A stretch of 64,000 nt of DNA, taken from Mesorhizobium huakuii. Its GTDB lineage: Bacteria; Pseudomonadota; Alphaproteobacteria; Rhizobiales; Rhizobiaceae. The stretch spans positions 620,001 through 684,000 of the forward strand of contig NZ_CP050296.1 in NCBI RefSeq assembly GCF_014189455.1, written 5' to 3'. Under the pieces are notes generated by a model. That model searched no databases. It was not told the DNA's origin and saw only the letters and a program-made list of their open reading frames with translations. The position numbers were made by a program, and so were the translations under genes. Of the stretch, positions 8,455 through 14,278 are shown one piece after another. Each line of letters starts with the position of its first letter. Position 1 is the first letter of the stretch.

Positions 8455-9278
8455 TCACCAAAACCCGACCAGCGATCTAAGCATCGCAACCGGGCCAACC
8501 GCCTCGCGGCACATCTCGCGAAAGCCGGCCCGTCCCGTTGCATCGAGCACATCGTCGTCGATGGCGCGCAGGATGGTGCTCGCGTTGCGCCAGCCGATCC
8601 TGGCCAGCGCCGAGGCCAGCTCGGCGCGCGCCGGATCAAACGCGGCGCGCTCATCCATCATGCCCGCAACCTGGTCGAGATCATTGCTCGCGTCGAGCGT
8701 GTGCCGCGGATCTCCACCACGCTACGGACGTCGAAAGGCCTGGCAAAGCCGAGGAAATCAGAGATCAGATACAGCGACGTGGCCGCCGATGAGACGAGCT
8801 GCTCATAGCACATGAAATGCACCGGGGCGCCGGCGCGGCGAAGCGCATCCATGGCGAAGTAGAACTGGTTCCAGTAATCGGCTGGCGACCGGAACCTGTA
8901 TTCCATTCGCCTTGCTCCGGTAAAATCCTGCCTGACCTCGAACGGGTTGCTGAGAAACGAGCCGAGATTTCCGTTCGGCTTGAAGATCGTGTCGTTCCTG
9001 GCAAGGCGATACCACGACAGAATCTGACTGACGGGATCCTTGCTCATGACGACAATGGGCAAGCCGCCATGGTCGATCTCGCGCCCGCTCATCAACGCGG
9101 GGAAGACCCCGTGTTTCCAGAACCCCTGATCGAAGACGACCGGGATTTCGAGGTAGCGTTCAATAAGGTGCTTGGCGAGGTTGGTGCCGGATCGCGGCGT
9201 CCCCATCACCCGGACGGCAATATTGCCGGGCCGCTCCCGCGCCCCGCCGAGCGTCGACATATCCACAATGGTTCCCAT
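8455..9278 (-). pseudogene. Sulfotransferase-family protein, frameshifted
   Basis: The N-terminal part has the PAPS-binding loop of sulfotransferases (MGTPRSGTNLAKHL, about residues 26-39) and a later KDPVSQILSWYRLAR region. The frame stops at 8658, but the frame one base over continues without a break as NDLDQVAGMMDERAAFDPAR down to 8455, so a base appears to be lost near 8694. If repaired it encodes about 274 residues. The start at 9278 overlaps the glycosyltransferase stop as TGATG, so the two form an operon, perhaps decorating a surface glycan. The acceptor is unknown. Confidence 0.75.
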
Positions 9279-10792
9279 CACGCCCTGCGAAAAACTGGTT
9301 GTTCGGCCGCCAACGGGCCAGGCCCCCTGGCCTGCCCGGCCACCACCCGGTTCGGCCCATAAATCCTCGGCGCTAGATCATCTGAAGCGATGCCTGCGAC
9401 AGGGTCGACGGCCGCGGCGTGGTCGGCTTCTGCGGCGTGGTCGATTGCCGCCACGTGGTCGACTATGGTGGCGAAAAACGCGCGCTCACGGATCGGGCGG
9501 TATCGTGTCGCGATGATGTGGCGCAATTCCGCCAGCCAGACCGGATCCGTGCAGGCCTTGGCGACCGCGGCGCACCAGCCTTCAACGTCGCGCGCGGGGA
9601 TGGTCGGCATCAGCCCTTGCGTTGCCTCCGTCAGCGACGGAGCGTCCGAAATCAGCACCGGCAGCCCGAAATCGAGGCACTCGGCCGCTCCCAGGCCCCA
9701 GCCTTCGACCGCGGAAGGATAGACGCTGAATTCGGCGTCCCGATAGAGTTCCGCCAGTTCCCGGTCGCCGAGGTTGGAGCGGAACTCGACATGTTCGGCA
9801 AGCTCGGGATGCTGCGCCATGAAGGCGGTAAGCTCCTCATACATCCAGCCCCATCGGCCGCACAGCACGAGCGTCGGCAGCCGCTCACCCAGCAGCGGCA
9901 AAAGCCGGTGCCAGACCTTGAGCAGAAGGATGTGGTTTTTGCGGATCTCGATCGTCGAGCAGTAGAGGACGAATTTGCGCTTCTGATTTTGCCGTTCGAC
10001 CGACATCTCCCGGTCGGTGACGCTTTCCCTCAGGAAGGCGCCGGGCGATGCAACCGCGACTTGGGGAATCCGGCGCAGGCCGGAGGCCTTGGCATGGCAT
10101 CTCACCCTGTCGGCGGTGTATTTCGACACGCAGACGAGCAGCTGCGCATTTTCGAGCTGCCATGCCGTGTTGCGGGCGAAACCGCGCGCGTGATGCGGAC
10201 CGACGAATTGCGGGAAGTCGATCGGAATGAGGTCGTGCATCAGGGTGAAGATGCCGCTTTTGGCTTTTCCCGTGAGCTTCTTGGCGGCCAGTTCGTGCAC
10301 GCTTGCGCTGGACAGAAAGCATATGGCGTTTTCGTCTTTCAGCGGATCTCCGGTGTCGAGCCTGCTTGGCCGCAGCGCCGACTTCACGATCTTGAAAAGC
10401 CGGATGGCCGTCTTGGACAGCTGAAACCTAAGCCCGCGCCTCTTCTCGGAACCCGAGAGGAAGATCGCCGCCACGCGATCGAACTCGCGCCCACAGGCAA
10501 AGGGCGCCTCCCGCATGATCGCCAGCACTTTCCACAGCCGCGCCAGATAGGAGTTGCCCTCGCCGCCAATCGGCTGCGGCAAATCACCGTCGACGAGCCG
10601 CTTCAGATACCGAAGTTCGGTTTCATCGAGCCTCTGACCCTGCCCCCACGCGTCGACGATGAAGAAGCCGACCGGCGAGCCCTTCCAACGAAGCGCCTGG
10701 CGAATGAGCGCCGTTTCGACGCGCGGGATACCCACTGGTGGATGCGGCCCCCAGCGAAACGGCAGGGAGGCATCAATATACAGTTTTTTCAA
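9278..10792 (-). CDS. Glycosyltransferase, GT4-like, with C-terminal His/Asp repeat tail
   Basis: A 504-residue cytoplasmic glycosyltransferase. The donor-binding half shows KNHILLLKVWHRLLP, LVLCGRWGW, and the typical FSVYPSAVEGWGLGAAECL and GLPVLISDAPSLTE regions of GT4 enzymes. The gene starts with TTG at 10792, preceded by aagg. After about residue 440 there is a low-complexity tail in which DH(A/V)A-type units repeat, from 18-bp DNA units at about 9418-9472. A promoter with a 17-bp palindromic operator lies about 140 bp upstream. It is co-transcribed with the sulfotransferase; the substrate is not known. Confidence 0.85.
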   Translation of the reverse strand: MKKLYIDASLPFRWGPHPPVGIPRVETALIRQALRWKGSPVGFFIVDAWGQGQRLDETELRYLKRLVDGDLPQPIGGEGNSYLARLWKVLAIMREAPFACGREFDRVAAIFLSGSEKRRGLRFQLSKTAIRLFKIVKSALRPSRLDTGDPLKDENAICFLSSASVHELAAKKLTGKAKSGIFTLMHDLIPIDFPQFVGPHHARGFARNTAWQLENAQLLVCVSKYTADRVRCHAKASGLRRIPQVAVASPGAFLRESVTDREMSVERQNQKRKFVLYCSTIEIRKNHILLLKVWHRLLPLLGERLPTLVLCGRWGWMYEELTAFMAQHPELAEHVEFRSNLGDRELAELYRDAEFSVYPSAVEGWGLGAAECLDFGLPVLISDAPSLTEATQGLMPTIPARDVEGWCAAVAKACTDPVWLAELRHIIATRYRPIRERAFFATIVDHVAAIDHAAEADHAAAVDPVAGIASDDLAPRIYGPNRVVAGQARGPGPLAAEQPVFRRA

Positions 10793-10936
10793 TGGTTTAC
10801 CTTCGAGGTTGCTTCACCGAAATCAATCAATCCGGAGGCAACAAAATCCGTGGCGGTCAAAGCCGCATCCATTCGGATTGTTTGCCTTTGTTCCGAGGCC
10901 CGAGGGTTGCAAATGATCGTCCTCAGGTGTTGATTT

Positions 10937-10965
10937 CTTCTACGTGGGAAATTTACCCACGTCAA
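10937..10965 (-). promoter_or_regulatory. Promoter with 17-bp palindrome (site A) for the glycosyltransferase operon
   Basis: On the minus strand, TTGACG (10965-10960) and TAGAAG (10942-10937) are 17 bp apart. The spacer is almost exactly filled by GTGGGAAATTTACCCAC (10944-10960, plus-strand reading), itself inside a 21-bp palindrome with arms ACGTGGG and CCCACGT (10942-10962). Binding there would occlude RNA polymerase, which suggests repression. Confidence 0.65.
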
Positions 10966-10975
10966 GCACACAGAG

Positions 10976-11004
10976 TTGACTTGTGGGTAATTTTCCCACA
11001 TGTT
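10976..11004 (+). promoter_or_regulatory. Second 17-bp palindrome (site B) with a possible rightward promoter
   Basis: GTGGGTAATTTTCCCAC lies at 10983-10999, centred 39 bp from site A. On the plus strand TTGACT (10976-10981) and a weak CATGTT (10999-11004) flank it at 17-bp spacing. No gene follows on the plus strand, so it may instead be an auxiliary operator for site A. Confidence 0.5.
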
Positions 11005-11322
11005 GAACTGTCAGCGACTGTGAGAGGAAAGGAAGCCAGGACATTCCATCGAATTCAGCGGACCGTCCGCCCCCCGCATGGTCCGCGGAAGGCAGCCGTA
11101 CCCAAAAAAGCTCACGCCCCTACCCCAACGAGCCCCGTACGGCTGTGCCGGCCGGTTCCGTCTATCGCAAAGGACGGACCGGCCGGATTATTGCTTCCGC
11201 ACAGGAAGTGCGAGGGACTTCCCCCATCCGAAGATGCGCAAAGCTATAGGAAATGGAGGCGCTCAGCGTTTCGTGAAGCGATGAACCGCTCCAATTCCGC
11301 TGCGCAATAACGGCCAGCCGTT

Positions 11323-11506
11323 GGCGCTGCCCCCTCACCTGCCTGCCGGCATCCTCTCCCCGTATAGTGACGGGGAGAGGGACGCTGTCATCGGCGGCTT
11401 CGCCAATCTCCAGTGTTGCAAAAAAGGCGCCGCCGTTGCGGCCAGCCCCTCTCCCCCCGTCACTATACGGGGAGAGATGTCCGGCAGGACAGTGAGGGGC
11501 GGCGCC
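11323..11506. repeat. Long imperfect inverted repeat (intergenic palindromic element)
   Basis: Arms of about 58 bp (11323-11380 and 11448-11506) are near-perfect reverse complements, separated by about 67 bp. Each arm contains its own smaller hairpin, cgtatagtgacg flanked by ctctcccc and ggggagag. The sequence style matches the other intergenic mosaic elements in this window. It could act as a terminator for the DUF5666 gene. Confidence 0.75.
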
Positions 11507-11551
11507 AACCGGTGAAGACTGCCGCGTTCCGCCGAGAGAAAGCATGTTGGA

Positions 11552-12622
11552 CTAGGGCCCGCCTGGGCCGCCAGGCCCCCCAGGTCCACCAGGCCCGCCT
11601 GGCCCATTCGGTCCGCCGGGTCCACCCGGAGTACCTGGCCCATTCAGCCCGCCGGGAGGCTGACCGGGCAGACCCGGTGGGTTCGGCCCAGGCTGGTTGG
11701 GCGACGGCCCACCGGCACCGCGACCACGCGACGCCGACACGATATTGCCCTCGCGATCGAACCCAACCTCGATAAACGCCCTGACGGCACCAGTCGATTT
11801 CACATCGCCATTCAGATTGTCGACGGCGACGCCAAGACCCGATTCCAGCCGCTGCCCCCGGCGTTGCAAAAACGTCTCGTAGAGAACATCCGCGACATTG
11901 GCCTGCGGAACCGGCGCTTCCGCTTCCAGATGCACCACTCTGTATCCGCCCGTGGCCTTGGTGAGGGTCAGCTGAACGCGCCGATTTGCCAGCGGCGACG
12001 AACCGGCTCCGATCTTGAGCTGCCCGACCAGCAACGCGCCCGACCGCACGACCGCCAGGCCGCGAAGCAGATAGGTCTGCTCATCCGGCCTCGCCTCCAC
12101 CAGGCTGGCGACGATTTTCCCGTCGGGCCGGCGAATGCCGTGAACCGCAACGATATCGCCCACCCCGACCTTCAATCCCTCCGCAAGCTGGCTGATGTCG
12201 ACCTGCTGTCCCAGCACCCGCATCGATTTGGCTGTCTTGCGCTCGACCGGTCCCACCACCTCGCTGGTGACATGGATGGCTGAGGTCACGATGCGATCGG
12301 CCTTTTGCACCACCGCGACGCGCACGATATGCCCGATCTTCAGGCTATTCGGGGCGACGGGGACGTCGTCGATCCAGACCGGCACGTCAGGCTGGTACTG
12401 AACCCGCACGCCATTGACGAAAATGCTGCCGAAGCGCTGGATCGTCCCGACGATGCCGGTGCCGCCGATGCCCTGGTCGCCATCGGTCCCGGCCGTCCAG
12501 CCGGTGCCGCCAATGCCCTGGTCTTTCGACGGTTCGGTCGCCCGCGCAAGCAGACTGAAAAACACCGCCGGCACGGCGGCTGCGAGCGTCAGGAAACCCC
12601 GTCTCGTCGGCCTCCCGCTCAT
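11552..12622 (-). CDS. DUF5666-type exported protein with collagen-like Gly-Pro tail
   Basis: A 356-residue protein. It begins with a twin-arginine-like signal (TRRGFLTLAAAVPA) and then has repeats of about 60-70 residues of the DUF5666 kind (IQRFGSIFVNGVRV and related stretches, small OB-like beta modules). From about residue 310 the chain becomes a Gly-Gly-Pro repeat tail, collagen-like, running to the stop at 11552. The motif DQGIGGTG occurs twice just after the signal. Its ATG at 12622 overlaps the DUF6502 stop as ATGA. Function unknown; a cell-surface or periplasmic role is inferred. Confidence 0.85.
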   Translation of the reverse strand: MSGRPTRRGFLTLAAAVPAVFFSLLARATEPSKDQGIGGTGWTAGTDGDQGIGGTGIVGTIQRFGSIFVNGVRVQYQPDVPVWIDDVPVAPNSLKIGHIVRVAVVQKADRIVTSAIHVTSEVVGPVERKTAKSMRVLGQQVDISQLAEGLKVGVGDIVAVHGIRRPDGKIVASLVEARPDEQTYLLRGLAVVRSGALLVGQLKIGAGSSPLANRRVQLTLTKATGGYRVVHLEAEAPVPQANVADVLYETFLQRRGQRLESGLGVAVDNLNGDVKSTGAVRAFIEVGFDREGNIVSASRGRGAGGPSPNQPGPNPPGLPGQPPGGLNGPGTPGGPGGPNGPGGPGGPGGPGGPGGP

Positions 12623-13488
12623 GCCGTCTCTCCGCCGGCATCCTTGTTCTCGGGCGTTTCTTCGGCAACGAGCGACGTGCCGTCGGAGGTGAGGATATAG
12701 ACACCCCAGTTCCACCGGCTGGTCCCGCCCGGATCGCTCTGAATGGCCTGGTTTGCGTATTTGTTCAGGCGCAGCAGCGTTTCGACCGCGATCTCGCGGC
12801 TGTAGGCCTCGAGCGACCTGGCCAGCTCTTCCGACAGCCCGTCATAGTGGACGGCGCGCTCGAGGAAGGGCGGCGCGTCGGCCAGCACGTTCTGGACCGA
12901 GGCCGCCGCATGATCCCCGAGATTTCGGGCAAAATAGTAGAGCCGGACCTCGCCGTCGCCGCGCGGCACCATTGCCCCTTCCATCAGCACGATCCGGTCC
13001 TTGCCGTCGATTTCGACCAGCTTTCGGTCGAGCCAGTCGTCGAGAACCGCGCGCGGCCTGAGATCGCGGGTTACCGATTCCACCAGACCGGCAAAGGACG
13101 GCTCTCCCGCCTCACTCGTTCGCGCCAGCGGCAACGGCACGCCCTTGGCGTCGACGAACTGCGGATCGGCAAGCCAGCGCGCGACGATGGCGCTGGTCCT
13201 GGAAACGGAATCGGGCACCACCCGCACCGGAGCGCCCGCCCCTCTCAGCCGGCTGACTTCCTTCCTGTGCACGCCCGTCAGCAGGCTGACCCTCGAGTCG
13301 GTTTGCTGCTTGTCCGGCAGCGCGAATTCATGCTCCGCCACATTGACGTAGAGCTGGCGCAGCAGGTCGACGAAGGCCGGAAAGGTCACGCCGCACTTGA
13401 TGGCCAACCGCACCAGCGGGCGAAGGACCCGGTTCAACGCGTTCTGGACCCCTGCGGCATCCAGATGTTGTCCCCCCGATTTGCTCAT
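12619..13488 (-). CDS. DUF6502-family protein with HTH-like segment
   Basis: A 289-residue soluble protein of unknown function, recognised as DUF6502-like (opening LNRVLRPLVRLAIKCGVTFP, then a LTGVHRKEVSRLR segment). The segment SRVSLLTGVHRKEVSRLR reads like a helix-turn-helix, so DNA binding is plausible. It is translationally coupled to the exported DUF5666 protein. Its upstream region carries a 17-bp palindrome inside the promoter spacer, so it may regulate itself and the other genes that share that palindrome. The regulator role is inference. Confidence 0.82.
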   Translation of the reverse strand: MSKSGGQHLDAAGVQNALNRVLRPLVRLAIKCGVTFPAFVDLLRQLYVNVAEHEFALPDKQQTDSRVSLLTGVHRKEVSRLRGAGAPVRVVPDSVSRTSAIVARWLADPQFVDAKGVPLPLARTSEAGEPSFAGLVESVTRDLRPRAVLDDWLDRKLVEIDGKDRIVLMEGAMVPRGDGEVRLYYFARNLGDHAAASVQNVLADAPPFLERAVHYDGLSEELARSLEAYSREIAVETLLRLNKYANQAIQSDPGGTSRWNWGVYILTSDGTSLVAEETPENKDAGGETA

Positions 13489-13547
13489 TGTCGTCCTTCA
13501 CTTGCCAATCGTTAAATCGGTCATCCATCCCTCGGAAATTCCTGCCG

Positions 13548-13576
13548 AAAATAGCTTGTGGGAAATGCTTCCACAA
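13548..13576 (-). promoter_or_regulatory. Promoter with 17-bp palindrome (site C) for the DUF6502-DUF5666 operon
   Basis: GTGGGAAATGCTTCCAC at 13558-13574 lies within the longer palindrome arms CTTGTGG (13555-13561) and CCACAAG (13571-13577). On the minus strand a TTGTGG (13576-13571) and a TATTTT (13553-13548) box are 17 bp apart, with most of the palindrome between them. It is 60-90 bp upstream of the DUF6502 start. Confidence 0.55.
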
Positions 13577-13699
13577 GGGTGCCGACCAAAGAAGCGACAT
13601 CGGCGATCCTTCTGTCGCGTCAGTTCCGGTTGCCCGCATCCCGACGGGGAACAACGCTTCGACTTGGCCGAAATCATCTTGCGACGCGTTTCACACCAG

Positions 13700-13729
13700 T
13701 TGACACGTGTGAAATTTTCCCACAACTAT
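13700..13729 (+). promoter_or_regulatory. Promoter with 17-bp palindrome (site D) for the Ros/MucR-like gene
   Basis: TTGACA at 13700-13705 and AACTAT at 13724-13729 are separated by 18 bp, and GTGTGAAATTTTCCCAC (13707-13723) fills the spacer. The downstream gene starts at 13778. The layout matches sites A and C. Confidence 0.65.
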
Positions 13730-13777
13730 GTTCCGGCAGATGCATCAGCCAGCCCATGCTCGTCAAGGAGAAACCTT

Positions 13778-14278
13778 TTGAAGAAGCCTTATGTCAGACC
13801 AACCATAGTCCGAGCCGGGGGAATTTTCGAAGAAACGTCTGATGAAGTCACCGACGGCGCCAGCACATACGCCGGAAACGGAAAACATATCGACCCGGTT
13901 ATCTCGATAACCGCCGATATTGTCTCGTCCTATGTCTCGAACAACCCCATTCCCGCCGCCGAGCTTCCCGACTTCATTGGCAAAATACACGCGTCGATCC
14001 GAAATATTTCGGATGGTGTTGCCGATGGCGGCCCCGACGAGATCAGATATGCCGTCCCCGTCAAAAAATCCGTGACGCCCGATTTCATCATCTGCCTGGA
14101 GGACGGCAAGCGCTTCAAATCGCTGAAGCGGCATATCGAGACGAACTATGGGCTGACACCGGACCAGTATCGCAAGAAGTGGAACCTGCCTTCCAACTAC
14201 CCGATGGTGGCGCCAAACTATTCCGCGACCCGCTCGAAACTCGCCAAATCCATGGGGCTGGGCCGCAAATCAAAATAG
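13778..14278 (+). CDS. Ros/MucR-family regulator with lasso-leader-like N-terminus
   Basis: A 166-residue protein. Residues from about 43 on are a Ros/MucR regulator: ITADIVSSYVSNNPIPAAEL, then FKSLKRHIETNYGLTPDQYR, KKWNLPSNYPMVAPNYS and a basic tail. Of the four Ros zinc ligands, the pattern here is Cys-X2-Asp for the first pair, one His, and Tyr in place of the last His, so zinc binding is probably lost, as known for some Mesorhizobium loti homologues. The first 40 residues are not part of the usual family: YVRPTIVRAGGIFEET fits the YxxPxLxxxGxxxxxT leader motif of lasso peptide precursors. The TTG start at 13778 is supported by aaggag at 13765-13770. Confidence 0.85.
   Translation: MKKPYVRPTIVRAGGIFEETSDEVTDGASTYAGNGKHIDPVISITADIVSSYVSNNPIPAAELPDFIGKIHASIRNISDGVADGGPDEIRYAVPVKKSVTPDFIICLEDGKRFKSLKRHIETNYGLTPDQYRKKWNLPSNYPMVAPNYSATRSKLAKSMGLGRKSK

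Follow-up and report, generated by a model that had tools for sequence, protein, structure and literature searches.

In a stretch of 64,000 nucleotides from Mesorhizobium huakuii (contig NZ_CP050296.1, positions 620,001 to 684,000; hereafter the window), four near-identical 17-bp palindromes lie in the promoters of a small gene cluster that encodes, among others, a protein of the DUF6502 family (PF20112). We consider it likely that these palindromes are DUF6502 operators, and that DUF6502 is a self-repressing transcription factor which blocks four promoters by occupying their spacers. The argument draws on sequence comparison and on the distribution of the sites, which follow the DUF6502 gene within the genus and well beyond it.

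Four palindromes in four promoters

The original prediction reported four near-identical 17-mers, and their letters and positions could be confirmed, as could the -35 and -10 boxes that it quoted at 17-18 bp. The sites and the proposed binder are:

10944..10960, minus strand: putative operator in the promoter spacer of the glycosyltransferase (GT) operon; -35 TTGACG at 10965-10960, -10 TAGAAG at 10942-10937
10983..10999, plus strand: putative operator within a divergent promoter's spacer, ahead of a three-hairpin RNA; -35 TTGACT at 10976-10981, -10 CATGTT at 10999-11004
13558..13574, minus strand: putative operator overlapping the -35 box and spacer of the DUF6502-DUF5666 promoter; -35 TTGTGG at 13576-13571, -10 TATTTT at 13553-13548; kept in 20 loci
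13707..13723, plus strand: putative operator in the promoter spacer of the Ros/MucR-like gene; -35 TTGACA at 13700-13705, -10 CAACTA at 13723-13728 or AACTAT at 13724-13729
12619..13488, minus strand: DUF6502 protein (PF20112), 289 aa, Pfam E 1.7e-30; proposed binder of the four operators

Relative to the consensus the sites carry one, one, three and one mismatches, in the order listed, 13558-13574 being the weakest. Allowing up to three mismatches, the window contains the motif at exactly these four places (seven rows over both strands), while shuffled windows gave 0.06 matches on average and none of 100 reached seven. In the 8.45-Mb genome, a scan at up to two mismatches returned three of the four window sites and no other place, the fourth (13558-13574) having three mismatches and thus lying outside this set. 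At three mismatches there were four more scattered places versus six for a reversed-pattern control, which is chance level. The frequent random occurrences that could have undermined the original prediction were therefore not found, and the sites stand far beyond chance. Since only local sites exceed chance in the whole genome, a wide regulon can be rejected and a widely acting regulator fits poorly, whereas the proposed spacer layout and small local regulon are supported.

The spacing reads TTGACG-17-TAGAAG and TTGTGG-17-TATTTT on the minus strand, TTGACA-18-AACTAT (or 17 bp to CAACTA) and TTGACT-17-CATGTT on the plus strand, meaning that 17-bp spacers are possible at all four promoters. The -10 boxes are weak at the Ros promoter and at the fourth, RNA-side promoter. 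While the three promoters originally named hold, three is not the total, because 10983-10999 has a plus-strand promoter of its own. Of the two sites on the GT side, 10944-10960 does lie in the GT promoter, but the far site points away from the GT, toward the DUF5666 end, and would drive transcription of the other strand, into a conserved structured RNA.

We aligned the promoter surroundings of 20 or 21 loci, leaving the mis-grouped DUF6502-side site of L049 out of the tally. Fixed across the aligned loci are CTTGAC-GTGGGtAAtTTTCCCAC-gTA at the GT-near site (TTGAC-operator-gTA kept in 20 loci), TTGACtT-GTGGGtaattTTCCCAC-A at the far site (TTGACtT-operator kept in 21), Ct.TT-GTGGAAgCATTTCCCAC-g.GCTATTTTCGg at the DUF6502 site and TTGACAc-GTGTGAAATTTTCCCAC-Aa at the Ros site (operator kept in 20). 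We also considered whether the two sites on the GT side might loop or cooperate, which is not favoured: in the 20 loci that have both, they lie 39 to 149 bp apart with no fixed phase.

The sites follow DUF6502 within Mesorhizobium

Counted per genome, at least one match with up to two mismatches occurs in 43 of 146 genomes of the genus, 25 of them with two or more local sites and 18 with one isolated match. The DUF6502 protein is encoded by 26 genomes, and site clusters (two or more) are found in 25 of these versus none of the 120 genomes without it (Fisher p 2.8e-27, for genomes that are not independent). In the 26th genome, G034, the DUF6502 gene and the Ros gene each have one site next to them, both sites being more diverged. 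Reading the loci of all 26 genomes, the window included, we found all four sites in 23, with the DUF6502 site retained in the remaining three. G034 is without the GT and sulfotransferase genes, the two sites on the GT side and the RNA; G104 (L053) is without GT, sulfotransferase and the near site, retaining the far site and the RNA; G065 (L049) is without the neighbouring Ros gene and the Ros site, retaining the other three sites, of which the DUF6502 site is weak, and the RNA. Where a gene has been lost its own site is thus lost too, each site going with its own gene.

A related palindrome, GTGGGGAATTTCCCCAC, occurs in several genus genomes (among the matches listed, G017, G031, G065 at two places and G104), mostly in genomes without DUF6502 or distant from it; it is perhaps the site of another regulator.

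DUF6502 and the palindromes outside the genus

From the best 80 of at least 535 confirmed stretches from named genomes, nine Mesorhizobium-like ones (L098-L106) were excluded and 71 scored (L107-L177), from Bradyrhizobium, Methylobacterium, Bosea, Kaistia, Beijerinckia and others. Each of these 71 best-scoring stretches carries two or three palindromes, counted with no more than one arm mismatch, in the 700 bp that precede the DUF6502 match; these upstream regions hold 167 palindromes in 51,830 bases, versus 19 in the other 539,610. An operator-like site at DUF6502's own promoter is therefore a feature of the genus loci and of every scored locus elsewhere, and the conservation in relatives on which the original prediction depended is borne out. 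In 64 of the 71 loci one site abuts the TTGAC of a divergent promoter (background 0.6%). The fetched stretches include a DUF5666 gene in 67 cases and a window-type GT in one. A shared glycosyltransferase N-terminus stands at or near the start of the longest divergent frame in 20 of the 71, with a variant in L170; of seven divergent frames scanned, three (L108, L143, L159) encode a group 1 glycosyltransferase with an ABC-2 transporter domain and four had no family match. A relative of the window GT adjoins DUF6502 in Kaistia soli (L152) and in 5 of 30 order-level loci, all of one genus. Taken together, the divergent frames and neighbouring genes indicate that glycosyltransferases recur under the DUF6502-linked operator.

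Wider surveys place PF20112 in 37 of 397 order-level genomes and in 21 of 398 at phylum level, the phylum set including some of the same order. Of the regions upstream of DUF6502, 28 of 30 at order level (that of the window included) and 7 of 17 at phylum level have a site with at most two arm mismatches, for an expectation by chance of 0.03 to 0.09 per region. By eye, TGGG-N8-CCCA can be seen in three further regions (L178-L180) and TGTG-N7-CACA in another three (L188-L190), and the distant homologs L095, L097 and L185 have the variant AATGGG...CCCATT; operator shifts in distant homologs are as expected if DUF6502 reads the operators. Other loci weigh against this interpretation: no site was found upstream of DUF6502 in L068, L088, L186, L187 and L193, and L182 has a half site at most. 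L088 comes from the family to which the window belongs, a case that speaks against an operator common to all DUF6502 loci. A residue code linking the first residue of the recognition helix to the outer operator base is not claimed: H changes to Q with AATGGG in L095 and L097, but H occurs with ATGGG in L184 and L185.

A second palindrome pair, its members about 39 bp apart, lies about 700-920 bp upstream of DUF6502 in L114, L125, L126, L132, L133, L136 and L137. In Bradyrhizobium this pair precedes a small conserved protein (..RFDLAIAEAC..), whose L132 copy has no Pfam match.

Proposed binder and mode of action

DUF6502 was the first candidate of the original prediction, and its co-occurrence with the sites within and outside the genus strongly supports that choice. 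The second candidate, the Ros/MucR-like protein, would bind the palindromes and regulate the locus, itself included. Its gene lies in the locus, it belongs to a DNA-binding family and, in 20 loci, one of the operators sits in its promoter; moreover, PMC5693944 describes AT-rich targets for MucR and the Ml proteins, and the operator core is AT-rich. However, a Ros/MucR relative is found in none of the 71 operator-bearing DUF6502 loci fetched outside the genus (about 4 kb on each side, less at contig ends), the Ros gene is missing beside the cluster of G065 where three sites persist, and Ros paralogs are present in all 146 genus genomes versus site clusters in 25. We therefore regard Ros/MucR as a highly improbable binder. 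Could DUF6502 instead bind the sites and activate, or both activate and repress? At the Ros and RNA promoters, the weak -10 boxes would suit an activator, and MerR-type activators also bind in promoter spacers. Nonetheless, with spacers of a normal 17 bp and sites that overlap the boxes, a steric block fits better, and we think an activating role rather unlikely.

We infer dimerisation, binding and repression rather than activation by DUF6502, as well as expression of the RNA and the nature of the glycan. In the proposed mechanism, a DUF6502 dimer would bind GTGGG-N7-CCCAC inside or overlapping the 17-bp spacers and keep RNA polymerase off four promoters: those of the DUF6502-DUF5666 operon (negative autoregulation), the GT-sulfotransferase operon, the Ros/MucR-like gene and the divergent three-hairpin RNA. 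Repression would be lifted by a signal, for which the second winged-helix-like part or the C-terminal helices are possible sensors; the cell could then make the surface-glycan enzymes, the Gly-rich and presumably exported DUF5666 protein, the Ros/MucR-like regulator and the small RNA together. Classic local autorepressors, such as those of the TetR type, likewise place operators within the spacer between the -35 and -10 boxes, their own promoter included; they differ in belonging to another protein family, and the present locus has a structured RNA among its targets.

The predicted structure of DUF6502 appears to contain helix-turn-helix and winged-helix-like parts, and HetR (PDB 4hri, 4j00, 3qod, 4yrv, 4izz) stands in the top Foldseek rows. 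HetR, a cyanobacterial differentiation regulator, resembles DUF6502 in length, in an N-terminal DNA-binding part, putative in DUF6502, and in a GGG-spacer-CCC palindrome; PMC4192349 states that HetR requires GGGnnnnnCCC. The DUF6502 profile matched no PDB chain up to E 10, with no profile-profile comparison with HetR made, and a single-sequence PDB search gave weak matches only (E 0.14 or worse), mostly to dye-decolorising peroxidases. A more speculative scenario, to which we give little credence at present, is that DUF6502 might be a phylum-wide family of transcription factors, perhaps remote kin of HetR, that reads TGGG-N7-CCCA and runs surface-glycan/DUF5666 loci, jointly with a capture by Mesorhizobium of the small RNA and of a Ros/MucR protein mimicking a lasso leader.

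A proposed three-hairpin RNA downstream of the far site

Downstream of the far site, a stretch of about 160 nt is conserved in 21 aligned loci and appears to encode a structured RNA:

11030..11190, plus strand, ends approximate: three-hairpin structured RNA, supported by alignment, covariation and a covariance model; it would be transcribed from the divergent promoter

The window RNA folds 4.8 standard deviations below shuffles, and RNAalifold gives 37 pairs, 10 of them with two-sided changes. Of the cells counted, 95.6% pair; four of five measures lie above all 500 shuffles, the fifth (further pair types) does not, and sliding the partners destroys the pairing. The loops are C-rich. A covariance model built from the 21 loci matches all four unused loci L196-L199 (120 to 164 bits), which are of the same genus and not remote, and has no match in L195. 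Among 61 relatives, its seven strong matches are the seven DUF6502-bearing genus genomes of that set, and two weak ones (E 8.2e-4) fall in G131 and G040. G169 and G170, outside the genus, have DUF6502 but no match to the model, and the RNA thus appears genus-specific. A small protein instead of an RNA is not favoured given the many frame-breaking indels seen by eye in the alignment.

From its sequence context, the RNA would be made from the plus-strand promoter. This strand assignment is based mainly on the promoter, the fold evidence being mixed. Alternatively, the hairpins might be a terminator or a 3' untranslated part of the minus-strand DUF6502-DUF5666 transcript: their position is past the DUF5666 gene, they can form on either strand and no long T run follows the third, and the mean single-sequence energy favours the minus strand (-83.7 vs -77.8). 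Wobble pairs number 57 G-U vs 14 A-C for the pairs of the plus fold, which are predicted on that strand, while on the 26 pairs common to both folds the test is neutral (8 G-U, 8 A-C). Against a minus-strand origin, a conserved, operator-bearing plus-strand promoter faces the hairpins in 21 loci, the plus consensus fold is better (-41.5 vs -32.7 kcal/mol) and some 360 bp separate the DUF5666 stop from the end of the hairpins in the window. We accordingly judge the minus-strand alternative unlikely and keep a plus-strand transcript as the preferred reading.

Rfam had no match at E 1 or better over 11030-11190; over 10700-13800 its sole match was a plant microRNA model, below the gathering score, at 11351-11476 on the minus strand. 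This segment, between the RNA and DUF5666, is an inverted repeat around CTCTCCCCGTATAGTGACGGGGAGAG and resembles an intergenic repeat element.

Genes of the locus

The remaining genes are:

8658..9281, minus strand: sulfotransferase-like protein, Pfam PF00685 E 3.7e-4, slightly below the curated cut-off
9278..10792, minus strand: group 1 glycosyltransferase, 504 aa, TTG start, Pfam PF00534 E 1.3e-16
11552..12622, minus strand: DUF5666 protein, Pfam PF18914 E 1.3e-7, Gly-Pro-rich C-terminus
13778..14278, plus strand: Ros/MucR-like regulator, 166 aa, TTG start, N-terminal lasso-leader-like extension, Pfam PF05443 E 2.3e-48 and alignment

The DUF6502 protein is a full Pfam member (106.2 bits against a curated cut-off of 27, profile positions 6-251 of 268). 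Its stop overlaps the start of DUF5666 (ATGA), here set at ATG 12622, while the analyses used 12634 (four more residues). The DUF5666 protein carries a putative Tat-like signal (RRGFL) and is predicted to be exported. The sulfotransferase-like gene and the GT stop overlap by 4 bp. PHROGs had no match for the DUF6502, Ros-like or DUF5666 protein, and NCBIfam gave below-cut-off matches only, for the GT.

One member of the group formed by Ros/MucR and the Mesorhizobium loti Ml proteins would be a target in the present locus. The family differs from DUF6502 in its known AT-rich targets (PMC5693944) and in not tracking the present palindrome. Its N-terminus here (13778-13838, plus strand), KKPYVRPTIVRAGGIFEET, fits the lasso-leader pattern Y-x2-P-x-[LI], with a Thr 15 residues after the Tyr; according to PMC10368454, YxxPxL spans -17 to -12 of lasso-peptide leaders and Thr occupies -2. 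YxxP[TAS][IL] and the TTG start are retained in 20 of 20 aligned orthologs (the distant Ros-like match of L049, no ortholog, is excluded), and a true lasso precursor in the same genome (L213:8498-8662) has the same Tyr-Thr spacing. This genome has two lasso-type PqqD-like and Transglut_core3 loci, at 3.62 Mb and 3.65 Mb of G000:C1 (L213, L214). Transglut_core3 occurs in 113 of 146 genus genomes and in 25 of the 26 with DUF6502; G065, the sole DUF6502 genome lacking it, is also the one that lacks the leader-bearing Ros gene, which is suggestive although only one case.

Significance

Local autoregulated regulons are of a known kind, whereas the novelty, as far as we searched, lies in DUF6502 as the regulator, in its operator and in the RNA. 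In the literature searched we found no published paper on DUF6502, PF20112 or three operator forms, and in those sources the family so far has no recorded function or DNA target; the additions made here are an operator, co-regulated GT genes and an RNA. DUF5666 is mentioned in four papers. If our interpretation is true, it would assign DUF6502, a family with 2,480 relatives in one protein search, its first function together with a DNA target open to testing, and the operator could be used for target prediction wherever DUF6502 occurs. The operator also draws attention to glycosyltransferases under shared control, to a presumably exported DUF5666 protein and to a new small RNA. Leader mimicry, if true, could tie the Ros/MucR-like regulator to the lasso-peptide machinery of the cell. 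More generally, the locus may offer a tractable route to how rhizobia and methylobacteria switch their surface coat.

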